A stretch of DNA of 64,000 nt, taken from positions 3,720,001 to 3,784,000 of the forward strand of contig NZ_CP069159.1 of NCBI RefSeq assembly GCF_016811995.1, written 5' to 3'. Position 1 is the first letter of the stretch. The number at the start of each line of letters is the position of its first letter. This DNA is from Citrobacter sp. R56. Lineage in GTDB: Bacteria > Pseudomonadota > Gammaproteobacteria > Enterobacterales > Enterobacteriaceae. Both the position numbers and the translations under genes were made by a program. The notes under the pieces are model-generated. The model had not been told where the DNA came from. It searched no databases and saw only the letters and a list, made by a program, of their open reading frames with translations. Shown here piece after piece: positions 14,403 to 38,460 of this stretch.

Positions 14403-14510
14403 AAATTTTTACTTACCTTACGTTCCTACACTTTATATGTGGTTTAAATAATCCCGGAGTTGACCTATATTAGCCCAACGCGTTTATTTGGTTACAGGTC
14501 GTTAACCTCC

Positions 14511-15173
14511 ATGAAAGACATAGATACACTCATCAGTAACAATGCACTATGGTCAAAAATGCTGGTGGAAGAGGATTCCGGATTTTTTGAGAAACTGGCG
14601 CAAGCACAGAAGCCGCGCTTTCTATGGATTGGATGTTCCGACAGTCGCGTTCCCGCAGAACGTTTAACCGGGCTTGAACCGGGCGAATTATTTGTGCACC
14701 GTAATGTGGCCAACCTGGTCATCCACACCGACCTCAACTGCCTCTCTGTCGTTCAGTATGCCGTTGATGTGTTAGAAGTTGAACATATTATTATTTGTGG
14801 TCACTACGGTTGTGGTGGTGTTCAGGCCGCTGTTGAAAACCCGGAACTGGGGTTGATCGACAACTGGCTGCTACACATCCGTGATATTTGGTTTAAGCAT
14901 AGCTCCCTGCTGGGTGAAATGCCTCAGGAGCGTCGTATGGACACCCTGTGCGAGCTGAACGTCATGGAACAGATATATAACCTGGGTCACTCCACCATTA
15001 TGCAGTCCGCCTGGAAACGCGGTCAGAAAGTGACGATCCACGGTTGGGCGTATGGTATTCATGATGGCCTGCTGCGCGATCTCGACGTGACAGCCACCAG
15101 CCGCGAATCCCTTGAACAGCGTTACCGTCAGGGAATTTCCAATCTCAAACAGAAACACATCAACCACAAGTAA
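14511..15173 (+). CDS. can: Beta-class carbonic anhydrase
   Basis: Interconverts CO2 and bicarbonate; needed for growth in air. Zinc ligands C42, D44 (CSDSR, with R46), H98 and C101 (GHYGCGG) are present in the 220-residue protein, the same length as E. coli Can. The ATG at 14511 was preferred to an in-frame TTG 51 bases upstream, because [11 protein letters not shown] is the family start. It converges with hpt through a shared terminator. Confidence 0.97.
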
Positions 15174-15185
15174 GTTCACAATAAA

Positions 15186-15246
15186 ATGCCGGGCGGCGGT
15201 GTCGCCTTACCCGGCATCTGGGCCTGGCTTCGCGTAAGCCTGATAA
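15186..15246. repeat. REP element after can
   Basis: ATGCCGGG / CCCGGCAT arms (15186-15217) enclose an inner GGCG / CGCC stem, followed by a partial facing copy GCCTGGCTTCGCGTAAGCC up to 15246. It lies between can and the shared terminator. Confidence 0.7.
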
Positions 15247-15247
15247 G

Positions 15248-15274
15248 AGAAGCGCCTCAGGCGCTTCTTTTTTT
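15248..15274. terminator. Bidirectional terminator between can and hpt
   Basis: Perfect 9-base stem AGAAGCGCC / GGCGCTTCT with loop TCA. On the plus strand it is followed by a T run to 15274, suiting can. On the minus strand it sits 3 bases past the hpt stop but has only a short T tract, so termination of hpt is less certain. Confidence 0.75.
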
Positions 15275-15276
15275 GA

Positions 15277-15813
15277 TTACTCGTCCAGCAGTACCACTTT
15301 CCCAACATACGGCAGATGGCGATAACGCTGTGCGTAATCAATGCCATAACCCACCACAAATTCGTCCGGAATAGCAAAGCCCACGTATTCGACCGGTACG
15401 TCCACTTCACGACGAGTCGGTTTATCCAGGAGGGTACAAATCGCCAGTGATTTAGGCCCACGCAGGCTCAGGATTTCACGCACTTTTGACAATGTGTTAC
15501 CGGAGTCGATGATGTCTTCGACGATCAGCACGTCTTTGCCACGAATATCTTCATCCAGGTCTTTGAGGATTTTAACATCGCGGGTCGTGGACATGCCGCT
15601 ACCGTAGCTGGAGGCGGTCATAAAATCGACTTCATGAGATACCTGAACTTCACGGCACAGGTCCGCCATAAACATAAATGAACCGCGCAGCAGACCCACC
15701 AGCACCATATCACTGCCGCTGTCTTTATAACGCTCAGTAATCTGACGACCCAGTTCAGCAATACGTGCTTTGATCTCCGCTTCGGGGATCATGACTTCTA
15801 CAGTATGTTTCAT
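15277..15813 (-). CDS. hpt: Hypoxanthine phosphoribosyltransferase
   Basis: Purine salvage enzyme making IMP (and less GMP) from hypoxanthine/guanine and PRPP. The 178 residues carry the PRPP motif [14 protein letters not shown], the flexible-loop SSYGSGMST and the C-terminal [12 protein letters not shown] chose [11 protein letters not shown] at 15813; an alternative ATG four codons upstream (MVRD) is possible. Longer in-frame extension is non-conserved. Upstream, the divergent gcd of E. coli is missing and a GH28 gene on the same strand takes its place. Confidence 0.96.
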
Positions 15814-16055
15814 ATCTCTAACCATATGATTTAAAAACAAATCACTCAATGCCTTCTCGGAATTGCACAGCATCGAAGCGCAAGGCACGCAGTATACCAG
15901 CAAAAGTAATTGTTCGCGGCATCCGTTAATAAGTCTAATTTTACAATTAGGATCCCGCCTCTTAAATCCAAAAGCCAACTACCATAAAAATAAAAAAACG
16001 AGATAAGATATTGTTATAACGGAAAATAACGCACAATGGTCGCGGCTCGCCTGGC

Positions 16056-16084
16056 AAAAAAATAGGCGACTCATGGTCGCCTAT
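16056..16084 (-). terminator. Intrinsic terminator between GH28 gene and hpt
   Basis: On the minus strand a perfect 9-base stem ATAGGCGAC / GTCGCCTAT (loop CATGA) is followed directly by a run of T. This is a textbook rho-independent terminator that separates the sugar block from hpt. Confidence 0.85.
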
Positions 16085-16123
16085 GCACAGCCGGATGATG
16101 AAAAGTAGCTGCCTGTTTTTTAC

Positions 16124-16154
16124 AAAAGCAGCGTGGGGTCACCACGCTGCTTTT
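16124..16154 (-). terminator. Hairpin directly after the GH28 gene
   Basis: Perfect 13-base stem AAAAGCAGCGTGG / CCACGCTGCTTTT with a 5-base loop, starting 5 bases past the GH28 stop. It works with the second terminator at 16056-16084 as a tandem. Confidence 0.75.
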
Positions 16155-16159
16155 CTGTT

Positions 16160-17464
16160 TTAACGGTTATCAAACGTATCGTTGGAGCCGTCATTTTCTG
16201 CGGCAACAGACACAACAACGTCATCAAAGCGCAAATCATTCACCGCAACAATGCGTCCAAACTCCCTGGCTTCAATCCGACAGTTGCTAAAACTAATGTT
16301 CTCCATCGGTTTTTCTGGGAAGGCGACCAGATCGAACGCGCGTGCCGGTAAAGCATAGTCGGCATCCAGAGTGGCATTAACGTGACTAATGCGGATATTA
16401 CGCACTTTGGTCATCTGTAAATGCTCCGGGATCTGCCTTGCTACTGCCTGCCAGTCTTCTGGCAGTTCATCAATGTTGTCAAAGAGTTTGCGGTTGTAGG
16501 AATTGTGCCAATCCATAATCCAGGAAAATGGGAATTGCACATTGTGCATCTGCAAATTTTCCACAACCACATCTTCCATGAAACCGCCACGCTCTTTCGA
16601 CGACTTCATGCGCAACCCGCAATCAGAGTTCTCAAAGGTAATGTCATGCACATAGACATTCCGAATGCCGCCGCTGACTTCACTGCCCAGCGTCACGCCG
16701 TAGCCTGAGCGAATAAGACAGTTGTCGATTTCGATATGTTCCGCAATCTTACCGACCCGGTAACCATCGCCATCACGACCCGATTTGACGACAATACAGT
16801 CATCGCCGCACGACACATCACACCGGGTGACGCGTACATGGCTGGATGAATCAATGTCAATGCCGTCGGTGCTTGGCCCATGGTTATCACGGATGGTTAA
16901 ACCACTCACCAGAACCTGGTTCGCATAGGTTATCTGTAAATTCCAGAACCCGGCACGTTCAAAGGTCAGATCAGAGATCGTGACGTTTTCTGCCTTGTAA
17001 ATCAGGCAGGCGCGTGGGCGTTTAACGAGGTAGTCCGCAATCCAGCGCAGCCCTTTTTTGTCGTAATCGACGCGCAGTCCACTCTCTTTATCCGGACCAC
17101 AATAGAGATCCCACCAGTGCGTACCCTGACCGTCAATCTTGCCAGGACCTGAGATCTCAATGTTGTTAACCTCAATAGCATTGAGTACCGCAGCGGGCCA
17201 CATCATCTCAACGCCCGCGACCCGCGTTGGGATCTCCGGATAGTCAGAAAGATCGGTAGAACCCAGCAGGGTCGCGCCTTGCGCGAATTGCAATTTGCTC
17301 CCTTCTTTCAGAAAGAGCGAACCTACCAGGTAGTTCCCCGGTGAAATCACGACGGGAAGTCCCTGTTCAGCACCAGCATCAATAGCCCGTTGAATTGCCA
17401 AAGTGTCTTTCACAACACCGTCACCCATCGCACCAAAATCTTTCACTTCAATTTGTACAGGCAT
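16160..17464 (-). CDS. GH28 family glycosidase (polygalacturonase-like), cytoplasmic
   Basis: Right-handed beta-helix glycosidase of family GH28, the pectin-cutting family. Seen in the 434 residues: an N-terminal VKDFGAMGDG segment, STDGID with D200 (canonical NTDGxD), CGDDC with D221-D222, and RMK at 285-287 (canonical RIK). The usual GHG histidine motif reads SGYGVTLGSE, so that histidine is missing, which hints at a substrate other than plain homogalacturonan. There is no signal peptide, so it should act in the cytoplasm on imported oligosaccharides. I chose the ATG at 17464, with AAGGA upstream; an in-frame ATG at 17509 overlaps the transporter gene and lacks a ribosome site. It is co-transcribed with the upstream GPH symporter. 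The exact product released is unknown. Confidence 0.88.
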   Translation of the reverse strand: MPVQIEVKDFGAMGDGVVKDTLAIQRAIDAGAEQGLPVVISPGNYLVGSLFLKEGSKLQFAQGATLLGSTDLSDYPEIPTRVAGVEMMWPAAVLNAIEVNNIEISGPGKIDGQGTHWWDLYCGPDKESGLRVDYDKKGLRWIADYLVKRPRACLIYKAENVTISDLTFERAGFWNLQITYANQVLVSGLTIRDNHGPSTDGIDIDSSSHVRVTRCDVSCGDDCIVVKSGRDGDGYRVGKIAEHIEIDNCLIRSGYGVTLGSEVSGGIRNVYVHDITFENSDCGLRMKSSKERGGFMEDVVVENLQMHNVQFPFSWIMDWHNSYNRKLFDNIDELPEDWQAVARQIPEHLQMTKVRNIRISHVNATLDADYALPARAFDLVAFPEKPMENISFSNCRIEAREFGRIVAVNDLRFDDVVVSVAAENDGSNDTFDNR

Positions 17465-17492
17465 TAATTCAGTCCTTCTCTCATTCTCGGGG

Positions 17493-18920
17493 TTATTTGC
17501 TAATACCATTTAATTTATTCAGCGTTTTTTCCATTTCGAGCGTTTGTTTACGGTTCAATGGATAGAAATAAATCAGCGTTATCGCAGCCAAAAACAGGCA
17601 TAAAGCAGGTAAGAGGTTCGCCATCGCGTAAATATTTTCCTGCACGGCACTGCTCTGGACGATCCCCCCCTTTGAAGAGGATTGATAACCGATAATGGCC
17701 AGCATGAAGCCGCCAATTGCACCCGCACACGCCTGACCCACTTTGCGGGCAAAGAAGTTCACACCATAAACGGTGCCATCCTCGCGGTCGCCGGTGACAT
17801 ATTGGTGATAATCACAAACATCCGTCATGAATGCCCAAATCATCAGGTTGAAGAGTCCAGCCCCCAGGGTCGCAAGGAACAGGAAGACCAGATAGGTTTT
17901 CGCATCCGTGATATGGCAGAAGTACATAACCAGATACATAACCACCGAAAAGAGCAGTGCGCCTACGCTGGCCTCTTTTTTACCAAACCGCTTCGTGAGC
18001 CAGGACGCCGATGGCGCCAGCAGGACCAGAGAACCGAAGGTAAACAGTAAAGCGACAGACATCGCCTCTTTGTTGTGGAAGTAGTCATTAAACAGATAGG
18101 TCATGTTGGTACCAGAGAGTCCCTGGTTAATCACAATCAGCAGATCGACAACGACTAAAACGATCAGCGCTTTATTGCGTAACAATCCCTTCAGTAAAAC
18201 AGATACCGGCACGTTCTCTTTTGTCTCAACGCGCACACGTTCCGTCGTTAACTGGCACGTCAGTGTTAAGAAGATGAAAGCCAGCACTGAACATCCGATC
18301 GAAATCCAGAAGAAGCGCTCACCAGAAATAACCTGGCTACCGTCAACAAGGGTGGTATACATCAGGATAGGAATAAAGAAGCCGGTCGCCCCGCCACCGA
18401 TAGCGGAACCAATGCTGCGATACGTAGAGAGCGAAACACGGTCGTCCGGATTGGAGCTGATAGCCGCCGACATTGCGCCATAAGGAATGTTAACGGTCGA
18501 TAACAGCGCACCGTAGACAAAATAGGAGCCGCAGATGTAAATGATTTTCGCGGTATATGAAAATTCACTCACAAATGGCAGGAACAGCAATACCGCAACG
18601 GCGCAAAAAGGATACTTCATGCGACTAACCCAGGGGTTAAAACGCCCTTTGGCGGTTAGCTTAGAGGTATCGCATAAACGCCCCACGGCCACATCGACAA
18701 ACGCATCAAAGAGTTTTGTCACAAAATAGAGTGACCCGACGATAACGCCAGAAATACCCAGAACATTGGTGTAATAAATCATTAAAAAACTGTTCACTAA
18801 CCCAAGGATAAAACAGTTACCCAGGTCACCGCACATATAACCAAATTTATCTCTAAACCCGAAAGGCCTGATATTAATACTTTTATTACTTTCGATGATA
18901 TGTTCATCTCGAACCGTCAT
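17493..18920 (-). CDS. GPH-family sugar:cation symporter
   Basis: Inner-membrane transporter of the glycoside-pentoside-hexuronide (MelB-like) family, 475 residues with about 12 hydrophobic segments. The family region KLFDAFVDVAVGRLCD followed by GRFNPWV is the usual cation-site loop, and DDRVSLSTYRS and MIWAFMTDVCDY are also typical. The ATG follows GGAGTTGGT. The GH28 gene begins 28 bases after the stop on the same strand, so the symporter probably imports the GH28 substrate. It is divergent from the SemiSWEET gene. The substrate is inferred from context only. Confidence 0.88.
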   Translation of the reverse strand: MTVRDEHIIESNKSINIRPFGFRDKFGYMCGDLGNCFILGLVNSFLMIYYTNVLGISGVIVGSLYFVTKLFDAFVDVAVGRLCDTSKLTAKGRFNPWVSRMKYPFCAVAVLLFLPFVSEFSYTAKIIYICGSYFVYGALLSTVNIPYGAMSAAISSNPDDRVSLSTYRSIGSAIGGGATGFFIPILMYTTLVDGSQVISGERFFWISIGCSVLAFIFLTLTCQLTTERVRVETKENVPVSVLLKGLLRNKALIVLVVVDLLIVINQGLSGTNMTYLFNDYFHNKEAMSVALLFTFGSLVLLAPSASWLTKRFGKKEASVGALLFSVVMYLVMYFCHITDAKTYLVFLFLATLGAGLFNLMIWAFMTDVCDYHQYVTGDREDGTVYGVNFFARKVGQACAGAIGGFMLAIIGYQSSSKGGIVQSSAVQENIYAMANLLPALCLFLAAITLIYFYPLNRKQTLEMEKTLNKLNGISK

Positions 18921-19245
18921 ACCAACTCCTTACACGTATTATTCACAAAAATTATGTATACATTCTGATAGTCTGGGTAATAGAAAGATGTACTATCGCT
19001 AACCATTTTTGGTACGACACATTTTCGCTGTAAAGAATAATTGGTATGACATCAAGATGGAGTGCTGGAGATCACACAATCTCAACAGCCCCTTTAACGA
19101 CCGCACAAAAGGTATATATTTCAAATAAAATTGGTGTGATAACTATAATGCAGTAAAACCTGGCTACGCTTTGTAAAACTATACGTTTTACATATGAAAT
19201 GGTTTCAGGAAATTAACAACACATATACATTCGCGGAAGTTATAG
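18921..19245. promoter_or_regulatory. Divergent control region of the sugar block
   Basis: AT-rich gap between the GPH symporter and the SemiSWEET. It carries three direct copies of TTGGTRYGAYA (19009-19019, 19041-19051, 19131-19141). The third overlaps a candidate promoter: TTCAAA at 19120, then a perfect TATAAT at 19144-19149 with 18 bases between. A 21-base dyad with arms TGTAAAAC / GTTTTACA lies at 19172-19192, and TGAAATGGTTTCA at 19195-19207. A weak CRP-like site (GTG...TCACA) lies at 19061-19076. AATTGGTAT resembles half of the hexuronate repressor (ExuR/UxuR) operator, but full dyads are not present. Confidence 0.55.
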
Positions 19246-19518
19246 ATGGATTACATTAATATCATTGGTTTTATTGGCGGCGGTTGCACTACCATTTCTT
19301 TTATTCCGCAGGTTGTTTTAGTGCTAAAAACAAAGTCAACGAAAGATATCTCGTTGATGATGTACTCCATTTTTGTTTTCGGCATTTCTTTATGGCTGCT
19401 ATACGGAATTTTGTCGGGCGCACTCCCCGTCGTCATCCCCAATTTGATTACTTTCGTACTGGCAGGTTCAATTCTGTTTATGAAGGTAAAAAACGAAATT
19501 ATTCAAAAAAATCGATGA
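19246..19518 (+). CDS. SemiSWEET sugar transporter
   Basis: Small membrane protein of 90 residues with three predicted membrane helices, matching one three-helix repeat of SWEET/MtN3 transporters. The diagnostic SFIPQV (PQ-loop at P21-Q22) is followed by LKTKSTKDIS, SLWLLYGI and PNLITFVLAGSIL, with the conserved Asn in the third helix. Bacterial SemiSWEETs form homodimers that move sugars down their gradient. The ATG follows GCGGAAG. It is divergent from the GPH symporter and convergent with cueO. Which sugar it moves, and whether it imports or exports, cannot be told from sequence. Confidence 0.9.
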   Translation: MDYINIIGFIGGGCTTISFIPQVVLVLKTKSTKDISLMMYSIFVFGISLWLLYGILSGALPVVIPNLITFVLAGSILFMKVKNEIIQKNR

Positions 19519-19526
19519 TTGTAGCG

Positions 19527-19575
19527 CCAGGTAGTAAAGCGAGTATGGATAATGCCTGCTACTTTTACTACCTGG
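19527..19575. repeat. Long inverted repeat after the SemiSWEET gene
   Basis: Perfect 12-base arms CCAGGTAGTAAA (19527-19538) and TTTACTACCTGG (19564-19575) flank a 25-base loop, 8 bases past the stop. There is no T run, so it is not a classical terminator. It could protect the mRNA 3' end or be a trace of an insertion edge. Confidence 0.6.
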
Positions 19576-19656
19576 ATAATGACAGCCCAGACCTTCCCCC
19601 TGTACAGCGCCACAGAGATAAAATATCTCAGGCATCAGGTTGGGCCATTTTTGGAG

Positions 19657-19685
19657 TCGCGCCCGCCGGCAAGCCGCGGGCGCGA
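19657..19685 (-). terminator. Hairpin after cueO
   Basis: GC-rich 10-base stem TCGCGCCCGC / GCGGGCGCGA with a 9-base loop starts 4 bases past the cueO stop. The following T tract is poor, so it may act as a weak or partial terminator. Confidence 0.5.
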
Positions 19686-19689
19686 AGTA

Positions 19690-21273
19690 TTACGCAGTGG
19701 TAAATCCAAGCATCATTCCCGTGTCTTCATGCTCTAACAGATGACAGTGCGCCATATAGGCATGCTCTTTCGGGGCCTCATGATCAAACTTGACCAACAC
19801 CTCGCTGACGCCGCCTTCGACGCGTACCGTATCTTTCCAGCCCGTACGATGTGCTGCTGGCGTTTTGCCGTTTTCCGACAGAATACGGAACTGGGTACCG
19901 TGGATGTGGAATGGATGTAGCATCATGTCGCCCTCACCGGAGATGACCCAGCGCTCATACTGCCCTTTCGCCACCGCAAACATCGGCTTGTTCATATCGA
20001 ATGACTGACCATTGATCTTGTTGGCGTTATGGAAATCAAACTGCCCACCGTGATTCATATGCCCCATGCTGCCATGATTCATATTGCCGTGATTCATTTT
20101 TCCATTGCCCATATGTCCCATCATCTGCCCACTCTTCATCCCCGCCATCGCTTGATCGCCGTATTTTTGCATCAGCATTTGCATGCCCATCATGTCGAGC
20201 ATAGGGTCCATGGCGAGTTGCAGCTTGCGTACCGTCAGGCCATCAAGGGACGGTAATGTCGGCATGCGGGTTAACGTATCCGGCAACGTACCAGAAGCGG
20301 TCACCACCAGCGGCTGGATGTGCATGACCGGGTGCGGTTGATCAAAAGGCGCAATCGCCATTCCCATCTGGCTGACTGGCAGAGTCATCAAATCAAACGC
20401 TTTGCCATCGCTGATATCCACCAGCACTTCGAAGCGTTCCCCCATCAACATGGGCAGTTCATTCACTTTGACAGGCTCAGCCAGCAATCCACCGTCGCTG
20501 GCGATCACATACAGAGGGCGGCCATCGCTGGCGGCGATGTTGAGCGAACGGGCGTTACAGCCATTGAGCAAACGCAGTCGTAGCCAGCCTTTTGGCGCGG
20601 CGTGTTGAGGGTAAATCGCCCCGTTGGTCAGCAATGTGTCACCAAACCACCCTACTGCGGCGGTCATTACATCCAGTTGGTAATTAATCTGTCCGTCGGC
20701 GGAAAACTGTTTGTCCTGGATTATCACCGGTACATCGTCGATGCCCCACTGCGTAGGGAGCAGCAGCTTACGAATATCATCATCTTCAATAAGCACCAGT
20801 CCCGCCAGCCCCATCGCGACCTGACGCCCCGTTTTTCCATGCTGATGTGGATGGAACCAGCAGGTGGCGGCCCGCTGCTCAGGTGTGAACGTAACAGTGC
20901 GCGAACCACCGGCAGGAATAACGCCTTGCGGGCCTCCATCCACTTCACCAGGAATTTCCAGGCCATGCCAGTGTAATGTGGTCTCTTCAGCGAGCTGATT
21001 ATGAATGTCGACGGTGACGGCTTTCCCCCTGTGCAGTTTTAACGCCGGTCCCAGCAGATTACCGTTGTAACCCCATGTCGTGGCCGTCTTGCCCGCGAAT
21101 GCCGATTGCCCGGTTTTGACGATCAACTGTATTTTATTGCGTGCATCGGCGGTTAACAGATCGGGAATCGGTAACGCGGGGCGCGCGGCGGCAAAGACAC
21201 TCCGGCTCCACAGTGGCAATGCAGATGCGACCCCAAGTGCGACAGAATATTTTAAGAAATCACGACGTTGCAT
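19690..21273 (-). CDS. cueO: Multicopper oxidase CueO
   Basis: Periplasmic laccase-like enzyme that oxidises Cu(I) to Cu(II) and protects against copper. A twin-arginine signal ([10 protein letters not shown]) shows Tat export. Copper-binding motifs are [19 protein letters not shown] and [13 protein letters not shown] Met/His-rich insert around residues 355-410 ([14 protein letters not shown]... and repeated NHG/GHM units) covers the type 1 site; it makes the protein 527 residues versus 516 in E. coli. The ATG at 21273 follows AAGGAAG; an in-frame GTG two codons upstream is too close to that ribosome site. A CueR-type promoter lies upstream. Confidence 0.97.
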
Positions 21274-21318
21274 TTTCACTTCCTTATTCTCAGCAGGCGG
21301 GACACAGCCTAAAACTTG

Positions 21319-37867: not shown

Positions 37868-38460
37868 GATTCCCTGTCTTAAGCCATTTGCCCGGAGTCA
37901 ATTGGTCTTACCAATTTCACGTTCGTGACGCTAAAGTAACAAAGTATTCACCTTCTGTCCATACAGGTTTTGATTGAAATCAGTAAACCAAGCACATTTT
38001 AACAAGATTACAGAAATAACGTTTCAAACATGTAACCATGCACAAATGTTAAATTTACCCCCAGGCAAGCAGATTTAACGTAATTGAAACGAAAAAATAT
38101 CCCATCTGAACCGATTCACCTGCTTAATTATCGATTTTCACTACCTAATTATTGAATAAACATTCATATTGCAACCAGCGTTTCCGGTGAAATGGCATTT
38201 ACAAATGGTTTCTTTTTATTCAAGTCGTCACCCGCCCTTCACAAAGCAGGTGCATTCGCGACCGCATACCATTATTCTGAATAAGACAAAAGTCTTTGTG
38301 TAACATTTTAGAATTCATTGCCGTAAACAAATTAATACAACAAACGGAATTGCAAACTTACACACGCATCACTGCGTAGTTCAAAAATAATGACTCAAAA
38401 TAGTGCGGGCAGCGCCAAAGCCGCCTGGAATATGAAGAGTAAAACCACACACGAGGTTTC
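37868..38460. other. Intergenic region between pdhR and aroP
   Basis: About 590 bases of AT-rich DNA without a gene I can support. It holds the pdh operon promoter and PdhR operator at the left end and the aroP promoter at the right. E. coli aroP is under TyrR control, but I did not find TyrR boxes I would trust here. Confidence 0.5.
37900..37916. promoter_or_regulatory. PdhR operator
   Basis: AATTGGTCTTACCAATT is a 7-3-7 perfect dyad that matches the known PdhR box (ATTGGTnnnACCAAT). It lies 33 bases upstream of the pdhR start, where binding would block the pdh operon promoter. Confidence 0.92.

Follow-up and report, generated by a model that had tools for sequence, protein, structure and literature searches.

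A GH28, GPH symporter and SemiSWEET cassette between hpt and cueO in Citrobacter sp. R56, with a predicted link to ExuR

Within a 64,000-nucleotide stretch of Citrobacter sp. R56 (the window: NCBI RefSeq assembly GCF_016811995.1, contig NZ_CP069159.1, positions 3,720,001 to 3,784,000 of the forward strand), the interval between hpt and cueO holds genes for a GH28 glycosidase, a GPH-family symporter and a divergent SemiSWEET transporter. These three genes are a real unit, present at different sites in different genomes, and, judging from operator-like sites in its divergent gap, the cassette appears to be wired to the resident hexuronate regulator ExuR, a predicted link that is new. We consider it rather probable that the cassette imports and hydrolyses a pectic galacturonate oligosaccharide, passing galacturonate into the ExuR-controlled route and venting a product through SemiSWEET.

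The cassette and its relatives

A sequence-only reading of the window had called three sugar genes between hpt and cueO, and this call held: the open reading frames (ORFs) are present and pass their family models. The GH28 protein (16160..17464, minus strand, 434 aa) scores 112 bits against PF00295 (cut-off 22.9), the GPH-family cation symporter (17493..18920, minus strand, 475 aa) scores 275.2 bits against TIGR00792 (cut-off 231.35), and the PQ-loop transporter SemiSWEET (19246..19518, plus strand, 90 aa) scores 105.8 bits against NF037968 (SemiSWEET_2; cut-off 80), with 9kax and 4x5m among its PDB matches and P21, Q22, W50 and N66 conserved in 4/4 aligned sequences. The longest GH28 frame (16160-17509) overlaps the co-directional GPH frame (17493-18920) by 17 bp; rather than 17509 we preferred the likelier start at 17464, which has AAGGA upstream, because both Buttiauxella orthologues start there. 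A divergent gap of 325 bp separates SemiSWEET from GPH, and G+C is 0.374 for SemiSWEET, 0.469 for GPH and 0.500 for GH28.

Comparison of the locus across relatives, as the sequence-only reading had proposed, located the unit both at this site and elsewhere. In a congener (L021; the genus is represented by two species genomes only) the same cassette lies between hpt and cueO, with three intact frames at 96-99% identity. Buttiauxella sp. A111 and B. agrestis carry the same three genes, order and orientation kept, at other sites with no hpt or cueO within the 21 kb examined; identities to these two cassettes are 73 and 73% for SemiSWEET, 84 and 83% for GPH, and 79 and 78% for GH28. The window, L021 and both Buttiauxella sequences form a supported clade in the GH28 tree (99/99), and branch order among the Pluralibacter and Gram-positive rows is without resolution. 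Transfer between phyla, in one direction or the other, is likely.

A scan of the genome collection, made for close GH28 relatives only, gave nine loci, of which L016, L018 and L019 end at contig ends. A GPH homologue is clustered with GH28 in seven of the nine (in L022 with one gene between), and SemiSWEET accompanies GH28 in three. The Enterococcus ZJ1622 cluster (L016) also contains GH88/105, a second GH28, a pectinesterase and GH43, and the neighbours of the Liquorilactobacillus GPH and GH28 genes include a GH88/105 protein and an IclR-type regulator. Across the family surveys (gcd, GH28 and SemiSWEET; 149 genomes each, nearly all of different genera and many of them tiny symbiont genomes), GH28 at 66% identity or above occurs in only 3/149 genomes and SemiSWEET above 43% identity in 2/149, both Citrobacter-like genomes being included each time. 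Window positions 16100-19700 had no blastn match in 20,395 E. coli records. Plasmid-borne spread was considered and set aside, as every one of 347 tblastn records against plasmids fell below 60% identity.

In the GH28 protein (motifs STDGID, GDD, GYG and RMK), D215, D236, D237, R300 and K302 are invariant in 11/11 aligned sequences. The catalytic acids and the R-x-K motif have recognised roles in GH28, and a His in the GHG motif is typical of polygalacturonases. Motif III reads GYG here, the Tyr being present in 10/11 aligned rows and replaced by Ser in the 40% relative. At this place the solved enzymes 1bhe, 2uve and 5olp have His (within GHG in 1bhe and 2uve), with an adjacent His in 3jur, and in the remaining GH28 proteins from the survey loci the residue depends on the clade, most often being His, Arg or Ser/Cys. 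Since the residue varies by clade, the Tyr marks a subfamily rather than decay. The AlphaFold model (mean predicted local distance difference test score 87.1, predicted template modelling score 0.88) was closest in Foldseek to 3jur, 5olp, 2uve/2uvf and 1bhe. VIA-align gave Z scores of 44.0 for 7b8b (root-mean-square deviation 2.5, 353 aligned), 43.0 for 1bhe (2.0, 343), 42.9 for 3jur (2.3, 381), 42.0 for 5olp (2.6, 387) and 33.7 for the rhamnogalacturonase 1rmg (2.7, 334). No signal peptide was apparent by eye, the only inspection made, and the enzyme is probably cytoplasmic on its sequence.

The genome has a second GH28 gene (C1:1642052-1645048; L087:8053-11049) beside its own GPH symporter, with PglB as best model (431 bits, below the cut-off of 600). 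We rejected it as a system of the same kind: it belongs to a different subfamily, its R-x-K motif is degenerate, and the best ExuR-type site in that locus reaches only 11.7 bits.

The closest solved relative of the cassette symporter by sequence is MelB, whose equivalog model it fails to reach (139.9 bits, cut-off 456); its best equivalog, the UidB glucuronide transporter, gives 212.6 bits (cut-off 528). In 4/13 more distant survey loci (39-41% identity) SemiSWEET lies directly behind a MelB-like GPH symporter, with a MelA-like gene before it. In these melA-melB-SemiSWEET loci (L132-L135), MelA and MelB of L132 and MelA of L135 pass NCBIfam cut-offs and the rest were assigned by sequence look; the ORF listing comprises longest non-overlapping frames, and the SemiSWEET frames of L134 and L135 were placed via the family survey. 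That symporter, glycosidase and SemiSWEET recur together hints at a shared role for SemiSWEET, namely venting one product of intracellular hydrolysis. The SemiSWEET match of G003 is flagged for one TAA. Four further loci (L107, L109, L110 and L111) have SemiSWEET-like frames beside genes that look, by sequence, like members of the mannitol/fructuronate dehydrogenase family, and SemiSWEET with a D-arabinitol dehydrogenase is reported in Lonsdalea (PMC5972207).

Operator-like sites and the resident galacturonate route

The SemiSWEET–GPH gap contains TTGGTNNNAYA-type sites that resemble ExuR/UxuR (hexuronate) operators. We scored these with a matrix for which the sole input was seven sites in the exu/uxa and uxu/gntP regions of K-12, picked by motif and not from a footprint table. 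The site at 19128..19146 (plus strand, AAATTGGTGTGATAACTAT) has the best score of all positions on both strands of the window (17.0 bits), and the gap holds four of the ten best window matches (19128, 19006, 18991 and 19038, two of which overlap), including TTTTTGGTACGACACATTT at 19006..19024 (plus strand, 13.5 bits) and TAATTGGTATGACATCAAG at 19038..19056 (plus strand, rank 10). When the gap was Markov-shuffled 2000 times, its best score was reached in 4 shuffles. AAATTGGTGTGATAACTAT is identical at 18/19 positions to the K-12 uxaC-exuT site AAATTGGTGTGATAACTTT, which is unchanged in the uxaC-exuT gap of this genome, and this match points to galacturonate as a product. The core TAATTGGTATGACAT recurs without change ahead of both Buttiauxella symporters, and the best matrix scores in their gaps are 19.7 and 19.1 bits. 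Each Buttiauxella gap also has a perfect TGTGA-N6-TCACA (a CRP-type half-site pair), for which the best match in the window is 8/10. A promoter-like pair for SemiSWEET (19120-19149) encloses the site at 19128..19146.

The genome carries genes of a route for the predicted product. Its uxaA-uxaC-exuT-exuR stretch is 84% identical in DNA to that of K-12, exuR lies near the uxaC-exuT gap, UxaC and ExuR exceed their equivalog cut-offs, and two proteins exceed that for tagaturonate reductase. Two GH88/105-family matches and one KduI-family match were found, and PF00544 pectate lyase had no match in the genome, other lyase families not having been searched; this complement fits a scavenger of pectic oligomers.

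Two other regulators were considered and rejected. The KdgR box is TGAAA-N6-TTTCA, and its best match in the SemiSWEET–GPH gap is an unconvincing 7/10. RspR (YdfH) was suspected from a match next to an rspR/ydfI cluster; its box, given as ATACnnGTAT in PMC8249747, differs from the cassette sites, is nowhere matched exactly in the window, and is present before rspA both in K-12 and in this genome. No operator sequence was found in the passages of PMC7567609 consulted. The match in question, an exact AATTGGTATGACA and the genome's sole one besides that of the cassette, stands before a ydfI homologue (fructuronate-reductase family) whose cluster also includes glucuronate-isomerase and ManD-type proteins. 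In this rspR-ydfI region (L083:5404-12423; C1:2391403-2398422), a GPH symporter and a glucuronate-isomerase-family gene lie between ydfI and the ManD-type rspA; an ExuR-type site of 17.4 bits precedes ydfI and an RspR box precedes rspA. In K-12 the ydfI and rspA ends of the region are separated by the Qin prophage.

Loss of gcd and the surrounding sequence

In E. coli K-12, gcd, which encodes a glucose-oxidising enzyme, sits between hpt and cueO. Taking this order as reference, the sequence-only reading had stated that gcd is gone from the locus, and so it proved: here hpt (15277..15978, minus strand; PF00156, synteny with K-12 and with the gcd-bearing relative L089, true start probably downstream of the listed ORF start) and cueO (19690..21279, minus strand; multicopper oxidase domains) flank other genes. 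The genome-wide check that it had called for also came out in its favour, as the gcd-family model TIGR03074 has 0 matches at E ≤ 0.001 in the whole genome, with the E. coli control over cut-off. The model has no match in the congener G001 either; among the 149 family genomes it gives some match in 72 and passes its cut-off in 62.

Against L089, similarity spans window positions 14436-16047 and restarts at 19700, within cueO, so that window 16048-19699 occupies the place of L089 6144-8600 (~2.46 kb). The left edge of similarity enters the L089 gcd frame by ~30 nt, in a ~35-bp region where the start codon is altered. There is weak sequence evidence that this region (16010..16047) is a candidate scar of the gcd promoter and 5' end. 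Nothing more of gcd was detectable (lowest E 0.22 by tblastn and 0.096 by blastn), and the earlier statement that no trace of gcd is left was thus nearly right, save for this weak candidate 5' scar.

Six of the gcd-less genomes were examined at hpt (G004, G012, G013, G015, G039 and G040). In G012, hpt directly adjoins cueO; in G040 a 174-aa gene occupies the gap (L125:1673-2197; no NCBIfam match of its product at E ≤ 1e-10); and the other four have no cueO match, their hpt–yacC interval containing other genes or none of at least 100 aa. Relatives without gcd thus leave the gap empty or fill it with other genes: loss of gcd is recurrent, and this tolerant site has the cassette as one of its occupants. 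The loss of gcd is an ordinary lineage loss, and for the same reason we do not retain the earlier proposal that loss and gain form a single replacement with a functional trade.

A terminator-like hairpin with a 13-pair stem lies between GH28 and hpt (16124..16154, plus strand; a shorter minus-strand reading is listed at 16145-16128). No repeats bracketing the cassette were found in 15900-19800, where there are short chance-like repeats only.

Proposed function and alternatives

We infer the substrate, the cytoplasmic location of the enzyme, ExuR binding and the role of SemiSWEET, which together would work as follows. Together with a cation, the GPH symporter would import a short oligosaccharide that contains galacturonate, namely a saturated pectic disaccharide or oligosaccharide, and the cytoplasmic GH28 would hydrolyse it. 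The freed D-galacturonate would enter the resident ExuR-controlled UxaC-UxaB-UxaA route, and ExuR, perhaps also UxuR, would repress the divergent promoters until hexuronate accumulates. SemiSWEET may act as a passive uniporter that vents or equilibrates a product sugar. In this genome the cassette occupies the place of the lost gcd. The pectin-type link suggested by the sequence-only reading finds support, with ExuR-type sites and the pectin-gene neighbours of some relatives backing galacturonate.

A number of observations weigh against this proposal. On the enzyme side, Tyr stands in place of the motif-III His of solved polygalacturonases, so that the protein lacks this mark of a canonical polygalacturonase, and no GH28 model reaches its NCBIfam equivalog cut-off (best, PglA polygalacturonase, 159.6 bits against 600; second, BT4153 rhamnogalacturonidase, 155.7 against 650). 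Gene context is not fixed: SemiSWEET is absent from the examined DNA of 6/9 GH28 loci, and the Pluralibacter and E. faecalis GH28 loci examined have no GPH. In E. faecalis 13-SD-W-01 (L019:1882-9121) the GH28 orthologue lies behind a ula-type (ascorbate) phosphotransferase operon, which hints at another uptake route for its substrate, and in Pluralibacter GH28 is divergent from a TsgA-family major facilitator superfamily gene. No regulator or uronate enzyme adjoins the cassette in the window. As for regulation, the palindrome AAATTGGTAAGACCAATTG at 37899-37917, which we take to be probably a PdhR operator, scores 15.6 bits, second in the window; other FCD-GntR operators resemble each other and score well, so the identity of the regulator is not proven. 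At 11.1 bits, the site at 19038 does no better than unrelated positions. Allowing at most one mismatch, AATTGGTATGACA has 5 matches in the whole genome and its reversed control 7, which gives no enrichment of the pattern by itself. Promoter-like matches are no more frequent than in shuffles (4 found, 6.6 expected), and no ExuR-like site was seen in the three Enterococcus promoters scanned (best 9.1, 11.1 and 9.8 bits).

The alternative that deserves most attention keeps galacturonate and changes the linkage: the substrate would be GalA-alpha-1,2-Rha (galacturonate-rhamnose) or short oligomers from rhamnogalacturonan I, the GH28 a rhamnogalacturonan galacturonohydrolase, and SemiSWEET would vent rhamnose as galacturonate is catabolised. 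The Tyr in motif III, the second rank of the BT4153 model and the GH88/105 neighbours in two Gram-positive relatives would suit it, and GH28 enzymes of such type complete rhamnogalacturonan I breakdown in Bacteroides (PMC8002723). We think it possible and lean the other way, as the PglA model scores slightly higher, the folds nearest to that of the enzyme belong to polygalacturonases and a galacturonidase (3jur, 5olp, 1bhe and 7b8b), with 1rmg lower, and no rhamnose gene was seen adjoining the cassette. A non-pectic hexuronide, in the form of a glycan that contains glucuronate or galacturonate and comes from a host, a plant gum or bacteria, is an unlikely substrate. The regulon link would then reflect glucuronate, in keeping with UidB as best symporter equivalog and with the exact AATTGGTATGACA before ydfI in its glucuronate-isomerase/ManD-type cluster; against this, pectin genes neighbour cassette homologues in some relatives and, to our knowledge, GH28 members act on alpha-galacturonosyl linkages.

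Similarly improbable, in our judgement, is that SemiSWEET stands outside the pathway as a neighbour gene merely sharing the promoter region. Its absence from the examined DNA of most GH28 loci and its lower G+C would be expected in that case; its divergent position is nevertheless kept in Buttiauxella at different chromosomal sites, an ExuR-type site lies on its side of the gap, and its distant homologues follow MelB-like symporters in the four loci described above. Generic turnover, in which gcd was lost by chance from a tolerant gap and the cassette is carried along with no selected use, would fit the arrangements in G040 and G012. It is hard to square with three intact frames, 96-99% identical in the congener, and with the retention of operator-like sites, and we regard it as the least probable explanation. 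The import and hydrolysis of a pectic galacturonate oligosaccharide remains the reading that we favour. A bolder form of it, in which SemiSWEET is an ExuR-controlled product valve that spread among enterobacteria in a three-gene cassette with the symporter and a Tyr-containing GH28 of a new specificity class, is offered tentatively and should be considered doubtful.

The sequence-only reading did not recognise the combination as a described system. As stated this is not supported: for Citrobacter freundii a melibiose-type cluster, in which SemiSWEET occurs with MelB and a gene annotated as alpha-glucosidase, is already in print (PMC5972207). The melA-melB-SemiSWEET clusters of C. freundii and L132-L135 likewise unite a GPH-family symporter, a cytoplasmic glycosidase and SemiSWEET; theirs is a GH4 alpha-galactosidase-type enzyme with SemiSWEET co-directional behind melB, whereas here the enzyme is GH28 and SemiSWEET is divergent. 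A GH28-GPH-SemiSWEET cassette was not described in the literature searched, most subscription journals and bioRxiv preprints lying outside its scope. The Enterococcus and Liquorilactobacillus clusters (L016, L018, L017 and L022) have homologous GH28 (54-61% identity) and GPH (51-68%) proteins; unlike the present cassette, no SemiSWEET was found in them and the three Enterococcus promoters have no ExuR-type sites. The exo-polygalacturonase 3jur of Thermotoga and the galacturonidase 5olp share the fold and the Asp, Arg and Lys motifs at 24-27% identity and differ in the motif-III residue. In Dickeya, the GPH permeases TogT and RhiT bring pectic oligomers to cytoplasmic enzymes, which are lyases and unsaturated hydrolases (Ogl, RhiN) of a KdgR-controlled route. 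The cassette resembles these systems in pairing a GPH permease with cytoplasmic enzymes and differs in its GH28 hydrolase and ExuR-type sites.

Taken together, this analysis presents a small cassette for which galacturonate is the predicted inducer, a regulator is predicted as well and the enzyme is probably cytoplasmic, all of which makes it testable in laboratory E. coli. It also brings to light a GH28 subfamily that is common to enterobacteria and lactic-acid bacteria and whose active site departs from that of polygalacturonases.

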